Source: a virus. Taken from it: a stretch of DNA of 26,140 nucleotides. The stretch's first letter is position 1. Each line of letters starts with the position of its first letter. The stretch lies in the IMG/VR virus record IMGVR_UViG_3300035158_000282, positions 1-26,140 of that record. One strand, written 5' to 3'. Under the pieces are notes generated by a model. That model saw nothing but the letters and a program-made list of their open reading frames with translations, had not been told where the DNA came from and ran no database searches. A program made the translations under genes and the position numbers. Positions 18,425 to 26,140 of this stretch are shown here, in pieces.

Positions 18425-19645
18425 TTACAGTAAGTATATATCGAGTTGCCTATCATCTTCAAGTCCCATAACGAGATAACGCAGACAGTCGAGTAGGTGA
18501 TGAGGCGTCGATTTATCCGGTTTATCGTCTTTAGGCTTATATTTGTAGGTTGCGGCTTCAGAACGGAGATTCGGAAATAAATCTCGAGGAATTACGAGAC
18601 GCTCATCCGCAATCATCTCATTGATTTTGAGAATACCAGGACGAATGTCATTCACAGCCGGTCTTACATCCAAACCCAACGCCGAAAGCTCCTCCCTCTC
18701 ACGACGCGCCGCTGGGTCCATATAATAAGTGGTATCCATATCGAGGAACTCGAGAAGGTCCCTCAATAGCATATCTGATTTGTATAACTCCCGTCTAAAA
18801 TGAAGCTTGCCGTCATCGCCATAGATAGCAGTTAGTGCAGCAAACGGATCGCTCATTCCTGGGTCAACCGATCCTATACGATAATCATCTGCGTGAACCT
18901 TGTACGGATCCCCACTCGTCACACAATTTTCAAATCGAGGGAGTACTAGACCCTCCATACGCTCAAACACACCACGGTAACGCATGTTGAATTCACGAGG
19001 GTCAAGTACTTTCTCCATTCGTTTGTACTCGTCCATAGAGTACAGGGGATTGAGGACGGAAGGAAATCGTATAACGTGATAGGTTTCTGGCTCCTCTCCT
19101 TCCTCTAGTGTTATATGATTCCCATTCTCATCAAATTGATCAATTCGTGCATAGTCTTGGAACTCAAGCTTGAGCCAATTCTCTGCATAAGGTGTTGTAC
19201 TAATCAGAATCTTACCTTCACTCAACCCCACACGTGACTGTAGCACAACCCAAGCCCACCTTGAGTACTGTCCTGCTTCGTCCGCCCATGCCCCCTGAAG
19301 GTGGACGGACTCGATGGAGTGTGGTTTATCGGCAGAACGGAAATAGACCCGGCCTCCATCAGGCAACAGATAGATATTGGGCTGTAACTTCAACTCCCCT
19401 TCCAATTCCGTACCTTCGAAGAAGTTAAGGAACTCTTTACGCGATGCGTCTTCTAGGATCTTATAGGTCGGCGCAACCACCATCCACTCTTTCCCTGGGT
19501 GGTTTGAGATTTCCCTGTACAGCCATTTCGGACCGAACCACGTCTTGCCACTGCCGGTCCCTGCAATCATCGCTACGAAACGGGCCTCAGACTGTAAAGC
19601 AGCCCACTGGCCCGGATGTAGCTGAACTTCTTTCTTTTTCTTCAT
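18425..19645 (-). CDS. terL: Terminase large subunit (packaging ATPase/nuclease)
   Basis: 406 residues. Walker A GTGSGKT at 29-35, Walker B-like GAWADEA at 118-124 (D122, E123), and ISTTPYAENW at 148-157 as coupling motif. The C-terminal RNase H-like nuclease has GSVDPGMSDPFAA (D261), YYMDP (D310) and HHLLDCLRYLVMG (D386) as the three expected acidic residues. It is the motor that pumps DNA into proheads and cuts it. I chose ATG 19645: a candidate promoter would start RNA near 19664, leaving a short leader with GGGAAGGGGG. A TTG at 19657 (four extra residues) directly abuts that purine run and is less likely. Confidence 0.93.
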   Translation of the reverse strand: MKKKKEVQLHPGQWAALQSEARFVAMIAGTGSGKTWFGPKWLYREISNHPGKEWMVVAPTYKILEDASRKEFLNFFEGTELEGELKLQPNIYLLPDGGRVYFRSADKPHSIESVHLQGAWADEAGQYSRWAWVVLQSRVGLSEGKILISTTPYAENWLKLEFQDYARIDQFDENGNHITLEEGEEPETYHVIRFPSVLNPLYSMDEYKRMEKVLDPREFNMRYRGVFERMEGLVLPRFENCVTSGDPYKVHADDYRIGSVDPGMSDPFAALTAIYGDDGKLHFRRELYKSDMLLRDLLEFLDMDTTYYMDPAARREREELSALGLDVRPAVNDIRPGILKINEMIADERLVIPRDLFPNLRSEAATYKYKPKDDKPDKSTPHHLLDCLRYLVMGLEDDRQLDIYLL

Positions 19646-19670
19646 GTAGAATCTCAACCCCCTTCCCGAG

Positions 19671-24198: not shown

Positions 24199-24237
24199 AA
24201 GGCTGGCCACCCCAACGGAGCAGAGCGACCAGCCTTA
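24198..24237 (-). promoter_or_regulatory. Leader hairpin over the start of the small basic protein gene
   Basis: TAAGGCTGG (24237-24229 on the minus strand) pairs perfectly with CCAGCCTTA (24206-24198), a nine-pair stem with a 22-base loop. The stem reaches the A of the ATG, and the only Shine-Dalgarno-like run (GGGGTGG) lies across the loop and stem edge. It could limit translation of this gene. No T run follows, so it is not a typical terminator. Confidence 0.45.
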
Positions 24238-24256
24238 GAGGGAGGAGCGGATGTAG

Positions 24257-24463
24257 TCATTCAGTTTCGTGTAGTTTCCTCTTCTTTAGTGTCTCAACCT
24301 CAACCGTAAGGGTGGCACCCTTCAAAACAACGATCTGATAAGACTTGTCGGCATCGCCATTGTCTTTCAACCATTTGATCCCATCACGATAGTCATCTAG
24401 ACCTCTCGCTACAACCCTCAGATTTCCACCAGCTTCCTCCGCCACGGCGAAATCATTTTTCAT
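24257..24463 (-). CDS. Small protein of unknown function
   Basis: 68 residues: MKNDFAVAEEAGGNLRVVAR, LDDYRDGIKWLKDNGDADK, YQIVVLKGATLTVEVETLKK and a charged end. The layout (strand, helix, strand, strand) suggests a small compact fold. GGGAG lies eight bases before ATG 24463. It is the first gene of the leftward series, so it lies closest to the control region and may be made early. No family recognised. Confidence 0.6.
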   Translation of the reverse strand: MKNDFAVAEEAGGNLRVVARGLDDYRDGIKWLKDNGDADKSYQIVVLKGATLTVEVETLKKRKLHETE

Positions 24464-24609
24464 CTCCGTCTCTCCCTGCCATTAAAGTTTGCCGTATCCA
24501 TCTATCTATAGACTACACTATATATACTCAGAACGCAAGAGAGAAATTCAAAACTTATGTAGACTTCTACTCGATGCCCCAACGCCATCTTCAAACTACC
24601 ATTAGCCCC

Positions 24610-24653
24610 AGTTTATCCTAGATCGAGAAGGGGGGACGTATCTAGGATAAACT
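24610..24653. repeat. 44-bp inverted repeat, copy 1 (14-bp perfect arms)
   Basis: AGTTTATCCTAGAT (24610-24623) and ATCTAGGATAAACT (24640-24653) are exact inverses with a 16-base spacer holding a GGGGGG run. Total span 44 bases, identical to the two other copies. It may be a double binding site or an RNA hairpin. Confidence 0.85.
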
Positions 24654-24872
24654 ACCCACCTTTGTATAGTAGTCTCTTCCCAACTCCCTTACACAACAAC
24701 ACTTTACAACAACCACAACAATAATACTACTAGTATAGTATATATATGTATAGTATATTTAGTATAAGTTAATGTTTAAGTGCTTTTAGCTTCTAAAGGG
24801 GGTGATAAGCTAAGGAAGCGGTGGCAGATAGGTGACCTACCTACACCTCCCTTTCTCGTTTGAGGGTAAACT

Positions 24873-24916
24873 AGTTTATCCTCCTATGGATGGGGTTGTT
24901 CAAACTAGGATAAACT
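24873..24916. repeat. 44-bp inverted repeat, copy 2, with an abutting extra half-site
   Basis: AGTTTATCCT (24873-24882) and AGGATAAACT (24907-24916) are exact inverses with 24 bases between them, again spanning 44. A further half-site AGGGTAAACT (24863-24872) abuts the left arm back to back, creating the palindrome AAACTAGTTT. Confidence 0.85.
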
Positions 24917-25040
24917 GGCCGAAACTACCAAATTCGATACGCTAAGCGCCTTTTCGCCAAAATGGCCCATAAATAGCCTAAAATGCCTATAAGAACGGCG
25001 TCCTTCACACCTTAGAACCCCCTACGCGGTATTCTAAGCC

Positions 25041-25084
25041 TGTTTATCCTAGAATAGATAGGGTGGTTGATACTAGGATAAACT
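25041..25084. repeat. 44-bp inverted repeat, copy 3, with an abutting extra half-site
   Basis: GTTTATCCTAG (25042-25052) and CTAGGATAAAC (25073-25083) are exact inverses; with the outer position the span is again 44. An extra degenerate half-site AGTTTTTCCT (25085-25094) abuts the right arm, again forming AAACTAGTTT, as a mirror image of copy 2. Confidence 0.85.
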
Positions 25085-25202
25085 AGTTTTTCCTCCATTT
25101 CAGGCAGTGAATAGCGATGGCATAGAGGTGGCAGGTTGAAATTGGGGTTGGCTAGAGGAGGAGCCCCATCACCTATACGACAGACGGGGGGCCTGGTTTC
25201 CC

Positions 25203-25218
25203 AGCAAACCGCGTGCCA
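25203..25218 (-). promoter_or_regulatory. Sigma-54-like promoter element, leftward
   Basis: Minus-strand TGGCACG-CGGT-TTGCT matches the sigma-54 consensus TGGCACGN4TTGCW at every defined base. It would fire leftward towards the phage genes, with an RNA start near 25191. It diverges from the rightward copy at 25254. Confidence 0.5.
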
Positions 25219-25253
25219 GTTGTAAAGCATTGCACAGCATAAACTTACAACAG

Positions 25254-25269
25254 TGGCATGGTTTTTGCT
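25254..25269 (+). promoter_or_regulatory. Sigma-54-like promoter element, rightward, copy 1
   Basis: TGGCATG-GTTT-TTGCT matches TGGCAYGN4TTGCW with GG and GC at the required spacing. Predicted RNA start is near 25280. TGT-N10-ACA (25221-25236), the form of NifA enhancer sites, lies just upstream, which may be chance. Confidence 0.5.
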
Positions 25270-25340
25270 ACATATGCGGCCAGGCTTATTCAAATCCCAT
25301 GCCAGTTATAACCCGTTGCCCATAAAGGACTTACGATTGT

Positions 25341-25356
25341 TGGCATGATACTTGCA
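25341..25356 (+). promoter_or_regulatory. Sigma-54-like promoter element, rightward, copy 2
   Basis: TGGCATG-ATAC-TTGCA, a full consensus match, 87 bases after copy 1. The TGT-N10-ACA site is 105-120 bases upstream, a usual enhancer distance. The flanking TGCCAG and TTAC elements are repeated at similar distances as in copy 1. Confidence 0.5.
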
Positions 25357-25366
25357 TGGACCATAG

Positions 25367-25382
25367 GGCAAACTACATGCCA
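25367..25382 (-). promoter_or_regulatory. Sigma-54-like element, leftward, imperfect
   Basis: Minus-strand TGGCATG-TAGT-TTGCC differs from the consensus only in the last base. Another weaker leftward copy, TGGCATG-GGAT-TTGAA, lies at 25289-25304. The same 16-base layout thus recurs five times in 180 bases. Confidence 0.4.
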
Positions 25383-25525
25383 GAAAACCCATAGTGTGCT
25401 ATGTTCCAGGCGAACGTAACACAGCAGTTAACCGTACGTTATCGCAACCATAGGCTGTGCAAGCATTTAGGGCAATCCCAGGCGAATTGTACAATGTTGG
25501 GAACATGCAATCTATTTTATCCGAA

Positions 25526-25554
25526 TTGTTGTAACTGCGGGCACAGACTATACT
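25526..25554 (+). promoter_or_regulatory. Candidate sigma-70 promoter, rightward
   Basis: TTGTTG (25526-25531), 17-base spacer, TATACT (25549-25554). It points towards the rightward gene at 25683, with the palindrome ATTGTACAAT about 30 bases upstream. Confidence 0.4.
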
Positions 25555-25609
25555 TGCGACGCGCCAAGATTCCGTCGAGGGGGAAAACTGGAATCAAAGC
25601 GCCGACAAA

Positions 25610-25618
25610 TGGTATAAT
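25610..25618 (+). promoter_or_regulatory. Extended -10 promoter, rightward
   Basis: TGGTATAAT is an extended -10 element (TG-N-TATAAT) with a perfect hexamer at 25613-25618. No good -35 is seen, which extended -10 promoters tolerate. Predicted start is near 25625, right before the leader hairpin. Confidence 0.5.
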
Positions 25619-25627
25619 AAGGGCGTC

Positions 25628-25669
25628 GCACCAAGGGCCGAGCGGCCCGGTGCTACGATTCTCTTTTTT
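25628..25669 (+). terminator. Leader attenuator-like hairpin before the rightward gene
   Basis: GCACC (25628-25632) pairs with GGTGC (25649-25653), and GGGCC (25635-25639) with GGCCC (25644-25648), a GC-rich stem. TTTTTT follows at 25664-25669, ten bases beyond the stem. The T run is farther from the stem than usual, so attenuation is possible but not certain. The ribosome-binding site GGGAG follows at once. Confidence 0.45.
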
Positions 25670-25682
25670 GGGAGTACGTACC

Positions 25683-26140
25683 ATGCCGAAGCAGGAGCAG
25701 ACAGAAAACGTGGTCAAGGTGAGTGATGTTCGTGTCTCGAGCGCCGGCGTTGCGCCCGCACCTAATGCGAGCGATAGCCCCATCGGCTTCCGGAATCTGA
25801 AGCCGTCGAGCGCAGTTTATTGGATAGGTTTTGAGTGGCCGGATGGGAGCGTGCGAGCAATGCCCGTCGGGACCCGGATGGGGATGCTCTCGCAACTCTC
25901 CATCGACGCCTCCCAGTTCCTTGTTAGTGGAGAATCTGTTGATCATGCCGCATGGGTCACTCTACTGGCGAAAGCCCAGCAGAAAAAGCTCGAGCAGGCC
26001 ACAGAAGCACAGAAGCAAGAGGAATGCACCCTATCGCAAGGTGAGAAGACAGGCGGTAGGGCACAATTGCCTGAAGATGTTGACCTCGTGGCCGGGCTTA
26101 TTAGGCATCTCAAGGCCGCGGCAGCAGAATACCTCGATGC
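25683..26140 (+). CDS. Partial rightward gene of unknown function
   Basis: ATG 25683 has GGGAG eight bases upstream and the frame stays open for 152 codons to the window edge, so the C-terminus is missing. It begins MPKQEQTENVVKVSDVRVSS, contains IGFRNLKPSSAVYWIGFEWP and DGSVRAMPVGTRMGMLSQLS, then a Gln/Glu/Lys-rich helix (LAKAQQKKLEQATEAQKQEE) and EDVDLVAGLIRHLKAAAAEY. No family recognised. It is the only rightward gene, with higher G+C than the leftward block, and follows two candidate promoters and an attenuator-like hairpin. It may be the first gene of a divergent early operon, or host sequence if this is a prophage edge. Confidence 0.65.
   Translation, partial: MPKQEQTENVVKVSDVRVSSAGVAPAPNASDSPIGFRNLKPSSAVYWIGFEWPDGSVRAMPVGTRMGMLSQLSIDASQFLVSGESVDHAAWVTLLAKAQQKKLEQATEAQKQEECTLSQGEKTGGRAQLPEDVDLVAGLIRHLKAAAAEYLD

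Follow-up and report, generated by a model that had tools for sequence, protein, structure and literature searches.

Strand-alternating arrays of sigma-54-like elements in viral contigs: a possible silent trap for host RNA polymerase

Why would a virus carry five sigma-54-like elements, facing both ways, within 180 bases of noncoding DNA? The question is raised by the 26,140-base IMG/VR virus record IMGVR_UViG_3300035158_000282, the whole of which was analysed here and is called the window. Its leftward operon encodes the terminase, the portal, the major head protein and the tape measure, i.e., it is the late operon, and the five elements lie between this operon and an ORF that runs rightward off the record (Table 1). 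The intervening region was taken as noncoding, the small ORFs that cross it being without known support. No PHROG or Pfam match was obtained for the rightward ORF, and no initiator match among the 10 window proteins scanned. At the opposite end, positions 2–500 hold low-complexity Thr/Pro-rich repeats (TTTTTTxAP) forming the C-terminal end of ORF 2–1672, which is truncated by the record end.

Table 1. Location of the elements, array units and flanking features in the window.
Feature	Position	Strand	Match or comment
Terminase large subunit	18425..19657	-	phrog_2, 2.5e-32; leftward operon, on the left-flank side of the array
Noncoding region holding the array	24464..25682		between the leftward (late) operon and the rightward ORF
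Array unit 1	25195..25282		divergent pair, GTTGTAA/TTACAAC arms between the -24 boxes
Element 1, TGGCACG CGGT TTGCT	25203..25218	-	sigma-54-like, 12/12
Element 2, TGGCATG GTTT TTGCT	25254..25269	+	sigma-54-like, 12/12
Array unit 2	25281..25371		tandem copy of unit 1
Element 3, TGGCATG GGAT TTGAA	25289..25304	-	sigma-54-like, 11/12
Element 4, TGGCATG ATAC TTGCA	25341..25356	+	sigma-54-like, 12/12
Element 5, TGGCATG TAGT TTGCC	25367..25382	-	sigma-54-like, 11/12
Rightward ORF	25683..26138	+	runs off the record end

Five elements in two tandem units

The sequence-only reading of the window had described five TGGCAYG-N4-TTGCW elements on both strands between positions 25,203 and 25,382. All five were recovered, three of them matching the motif at 12 of 12 positions and two at 11 of 12. 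The strands follow the order - + - + -, the N4 spacer is kept in all five sites, and so is the GG; the GC is altered in the element at 25,289 alone (TTGAA). That reading had also held a chance origin to be very unlikely, and 2000 dinucleotide-preserving shuffles of the noncoding region agreed with it: sites at 11/12 or better numbered 0.0155 on average and 1 at the most, against the 5 observed. No further 11/12 or 12/12 site was found in the 26,140 bases when the same element was sought elsewhere in the window, one of the checks proposed with the earlier description.

The divergent pairs proved to lie inside larger inverted repeats, as had been claimed. Two units of about 87 bases each, with a mean column identity of 78%, contain elements 1–2 and 3–4 as their divergent pairs. 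Both have inverted GTTRTAA...TTACRAY arms separating their -24 boxes; those of unit 2 are less perfect (TTACGATTGT). Because of this duplication, the sites cannot be counted as five independent events. Start-to-start spacings are 35 and 26 bases for the convergent (+-) neighbours and 51 and 52 for the divergent (-+) neighbours.

A 42-base palindromic element, GTTTATCCTAG-N20-CTAGGATAAAC, occurs three times in the same noncoding region (24,611–24,652, 24,874–24,915 and 25,042–25,083), the left arm of the second copy having two mismatches. Their form suggests operator- or initiator-like sites for a different protein.

No close relative of the window array was found in searches with the terminase, the capsid and the TTACAAC arm. 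No relatives of the window terminase and capsid were found among the IMG/VR viral contigs, and in a tblastn search of named phages the terminase matched 52 records, all below 60% identity, the 20 listed being at 22–27%. A viral search with a pattern including the extra TTACAAC arm returned three stretches and no array: two shared one sequence, which is probably coding, and the third held a single 12/12 site with no second site within 150 bases.

A class of arrays enriched in viruses

Pairs of the element recur in the IMG/VR viral contigs, a collection of 2.9 million. Divergent pairs (two elements facing away from each other, 20–50 bases apart) occurred in at least 119 stretches and convergent pairs (facing each other, 2–10 bases apart) in at least 120, whereas bacterial and archaeal genomes (257 Gb) gave 11 stretches with the convergent pattern. 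Control patterns with N5 or N3 spacers, or with the half-sites swapped, had no match in the viral contigs. By arithmetic on the pair counts, the viral rate exceeds the host rate unless viral contigs averaged nearly 1 Mb; among the matches listed, the longest contig measured 93,745 bases.

The loci were fetched by site pairs, and the pair itself is therefore selected; further sites, alternation and gene context are not. A further site at 11/12 or better lay within 150 bases in 99 of 130 viral convergent-pattern loci (mean 2.6) and in 3 of 11 host loci, the background rate of such sites being 0.021 per 316 bases. Four or more sites at 11/12 or better, each no further than 120 bases from the next, were counted as an array. 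This gave 117 arrays in 114 loci, or 114 viral arrays in 111 loci after removal of three host-genome arrays. Near-duplicates were dropped to leave 96 distinct arrays, and arrays with unknown flanks to leave 66 gene contexts.

The densest arrays pack up to 11 sites within 300 bases. Strands alternated between 413 of 523 neighbouring sites in the 96 distinct arrays; shuffling the orientations within arrays gave 285 on average and never more than 320. Convergent neighbours were at most 24 bases apart, start to start, in 189 of 213 cases and divergent neighbours at most 36 bases apart in 155 of 200, a packing often too tight for simultaneous use of the sites. A coding origin was rejected: with gene calls made by a simple longest-ORF choice, just 14 of the 117 arrays were mostly covered by a chosen ORF of at least 150 amino acids (45 of 117 for at least 100). 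One array family with a 20-nt inner spacer is open in one reading frame. Dense strand-alternating arrays are thus a virus-enriched class of which the window is not the sole carrier, and their sites, alternation, spacing, position and viral enrichment are observed directly.

Other arrangements were seen as well. Dispersed units, as distinct from a single array, were present in four loci (L005, L006, L049 and L072) on virus contigs of 82 and 42 kb. Each unit is a divergent sigma-54-like pair around an inner segment of 26 bases, which in most cases contains GAGCCGGTTCG, and successive units are separated by anything from a few hundred bases to about 2 kb. At L099:9778-9949, six same-strand copies of the element plus TGTGAGCGTT form, for the most part, a 26-base tandem repeat; this locus looks like an iteron-like exception to strand alternation. 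In loci starting at contig base 1 (L015, L024, L058, L060, L062 and L079), several arrays sit no more than a few hundred bases from the end of the contig, as if repeats had broken the assembly, and many more arrays may be hidden in this way.

With five sites in 180 bases on alternating strands, the window array falls within the class as defined, and its packing is looser than the typical convergent and divergent spacings. The window sites are consequently not too crowded to serve as promoters. Its flank and spacer positions fitted the viral profile weakly, 13% of random quintets scoring equally well. The window is itself a weaker case: it resembles the class in its core sites, its strand alternation and its position near the late operon, and less so in packing, flanks and the private TTACAAC arms.

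A few cultured Vibrio and Pseudomonas phages carry sparser versions. Five sites, among them a convergent pair 18 apart, occupy the noncoding stretch next to gene A2-A3 of the Vibrio T5-like phage VCPH. The Vibrio T5-like phages pVp-1, VPT02 and VF16 have a common layout with a convergent pair 22 apart; in VF16 the sites fall within the annotated left terminal repeat. Convergent pairs were also present in Vibrio phage D419 (17 apart) and in Pseudomonas phage Kat (18 apart), the latter within 628 bases that separate annotated genes. A single 12/12 site, without a partner, was found in Psxphi15, and the scan at 11/12 was empty for Salmonella phage 19 and Synechococcus Syn19. These scans followed weak matches from array BLAST at E up to 10 and covered the smaller part of the 301 matched records, with none from Listeria. 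Megablast and blastn of two array loci against named phages gave no match. Five named-phage terminase neighbourhoods (L220–L224), reached by tblastn with three array-neighbouring terminases, contained no array, nor did the first 16 kb of T5 or 42 kb of nickie, isolated 11/12 sites being present in nickie and L220. Against plasmids, BLAST of the arrays returned two matches at chance level.

Likeness to sigma-54 sites and the proposed role

The sigma-54 consensus is mrNrYTGGCACG-N4-TTGCW, and the viral elements share with the -24/-12 elements of sigma-54 (RpoN), TGGCACG-N4-TTGCW, the core, the spacing and the tolerance at each position. In 346 distinct 12/12 viral sites, upstream positions that had not been searched for were A/C in 66% at -5, A/G in 72% at -4, G/A in 64% at -2 and T/C in 85% at -1; at the spacer edges, A/G followed the -24 box in 79% and C/T preceded TTGC in 74%. 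All of these agree with the consensus (mrNrY, R, Y). Single mismatches spared GG and GC almost entirely and fell on the outer Ts, the final W and the last G of the -24 box. The Desulfovibrio sigma-54 core is given as tGGcacg and tTGCt (PMC4641369). Of the 11 bacterial genomes in which the convergent pattern occurred, 10 have the sigma-54 gene rpoN (PF04552), a figure that comes without a base rate for the searched genomes. The exception was Bifidobacterium jacchi, where an inverted repeat holds two 11/12 copies of identical sequence, and its phylum is reported to be without rpoN (PMC12316311).

The likeness to -24/-12 elements noted in the sequence-only reading is therefore upheld, through the N4 specificity of the viral class and the unsearched positions; the promoter control of phage genes implied with it is not. 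Judged from these patterns, the viral class very probably binds sigma-54, and the window's five sites, with less assurance, probably do so too. This putative binding step is the well-supported part of the explanation that follows.

We propose that the window cluster belongs, as a small example, to a widespread viral class of strand-alternating arrays of sites for host RNA polymerase with sigma-54, which would act mainly as silent traps; we put the probability of this at about one half. Host polymerase carrying sigma-54 would bind the array sites as a stable, silent closed complex, from which no transcription would start without an activator ATPase, and the array would keep the sigma-54 polymerase inactive on phage DNA. 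At phage copy numbers, scarce sigma-54 would be titrated away from host promoters, namely those of the phage-shock response, pili, flagella and nitrogen stress. The sigma-54 molecules of an E. coli cell number of the order of 100, which a hundred phage genomes with ten sites each would exceed. At its sites the sigma-54 holoenzyme is described as transcriptionally inactive, with binding that is not condition-dependent (PMC4591121). A review states that E. coli sigma-54 apparently lacks an anti-sigma factor (PMC3861889), and the phage-shock operon is sigma-54 dependent (PMC3844500). This silent binding, the apparent lack of an anti-sigma factor and the excess of sites over sigma-54 together favour a trap. 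Sigma-54 binding in vivo, titration and a benefit to the phage are what we infer.

The trap role appears the most likely one because the sites alternate in direction, are often tightly packed, show no orientation towards genes and come with no phage activator found. Alternating close packing fits a trap, where colliding promoters stay silent, and not directed transcription. An unlikely alternative is that these are ordinary divergent sigma-54-dependent promoters, fired by a host activator that may bind the GTTRTAA/TTACRAY arms and serving the late operon to the left and ORF 25683 to the right. The three 12/12 elements of the window do lie in a divergent intergenic region whose spacing leaves room for separate holoenzymes, and divergent genes are the commonest context of the class (35 of the 66 with both flanks known). 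Against promoters, 68 sites in codirectional gene contexts point with the genes and 68 against them, the window itself being uninformative as its context is divergent, and 9 of the 66 arrays sit between convergent gene ends. The window's left and right genes are about 740 and about 330–410 bases away from the nearest fitting sites. The activator domain PF00158 was found neither in 50 array-bearing virus records, chosen from 208 viral stretches, nor in the window, where the earlier reading had suggested looking for a phage activator; the window record and many of the others are fragments, and host activators could act.

Slightly less probable again is a role of the sigma-54 holoenzyme as repressor or roadblock, in which silent complexes would shield the early operon from the late one or lie over other promoters, and the phage would sense the free sigma-54 of its host. 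Promoters overlapped by bound sigma-54 are reported to be repressed (PMC4591121), and arrays are often found between divergent operons and near the terminase (60 of 111 loci). However, a sigma-70 scan of positions 24,200–25,800 found no promoter-like site to be covered, a pair seen by eye near 25,531 having failed the scan, and 31 of the 66 arrays lie in non-divergent contexts.

Of the same low probability is the reading in which the sites belong to a phage-encoded protein, as iterons, partition sites or operators that resemble -24/-12 boxes by chance. Arrays of many copies are typical of such proteins, and the tandem same-strand copies at L099 (26 bp), the extra TTACAAC arm of the window, which is outside the sigma-54 consensus, and the weak sigma-54 fit of the window's unsearched positions all point this way. 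Yet the motif recurs, with the degenerate flanks of sigma-54, beside unrelated genes, and one would expect the target of a phage protein to drift from phage to phage. Apart from the terminase, no family was present in more than 27 of the 111 loci, and no replication family was common to them. That no single phage-encoded binder stands beside the arrays in the loci examined suggests a host factor. Iterons, the alternative offered with the sequence-only reading, are disfavoured by the strand alternation and the lack of a shared replication gene, L099 being the one iteron-like locus.

The frequency of the terminase was also seen from the proteins: 54 of 70 array neighbours, picked by size from 163, matched the terminase profile phrog_2. 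The second commonest neighbour family (27 of 111 loci) consists of proteins of about 130 amino acids encoded beside the array (L024:634-1026 and homologues), with an AT-hook in the representative; its gene lies upstream of a peptidase/endolysin-like protein and the terminase.

Hairpins formed by inverted copies, as terminators, REP-like elements or packaging signals, are very improbable: alternating neighbour copies can pair over TGGCAYG and TTGC, but neighbour spacers are less complementary than shuffled ones (0.26 versus 0.335 for 154 +- pairs, 0.286 versus 0.33 for 144 -+ pairs), so hairpins do not appear to be selected.

Relation to known systems and meaning

The viral arrays differ from sigma-54 promoters in having many alternating copies within 100–300 bp, in not being directed at genes, in coming with no activator gene found and in being virus-specific. 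Titration by DNA has a natural precedent in datA, a site cluster that titrates DnaA, and synthetic DNA sponges and decoy sites are reportedly engineered clusters that titrate proteins. The viral arrays are likewise clusters of sites able to lower the concentration of free protein; unlike the others, they are on phage DNA, alternate in strand and have a sigma factor as the presumed target, the titration here being a proposal. Iteron origins of plasmids and phages also consist of short protein-binding repeats in noncoding DNA, whereas the viral arrays alternate instead of running in tandem and have no shared initiator gene. In the silent intragenic and intergenic sigma-54 sites of E. coli (PMC4591121), the bound holoenzyme is likewise inactive, but those sites are on the host chromosome and not in dense viral arrays. 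Searches of the open-licence literature in PubMed Central found no description of sigma-54 site arrays in viruses.

More tentatively than the trap itself, we suggest a DNA-encoded anti-sigma-54 in many uncultured tailed phages: an alternating array of optimal -24/-12 sites would hold the polymerase in dead-end closed complexes and disarm sigma-54 responses with no protein made. Among bacterial sigma factors, sigma-54 alone is known for a holoenzyme that parks silently on its promoter. An anti-sigma factor for it is apparently absent, according to the review cited above (PMC3861889). In the Vibrio T5-like phages, a sparse version lies in terminal-repeat DNA; should this be the first DNA to enter, as it is in T5, the sites would act at once.

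Uncultured viruses commonly have arrays of this class, and a few cultured Vibrio and Pseudomonas phages carry sparse versions, which makes the trap idea directly testable. An alternating array of sigma-54 sites in a viral contig may also hint at a host that carries rpoN. If the proposal is true, bare DNA sites used as bait would represent a host takeover without any protein, one that is invisible to gene-centred annotation.
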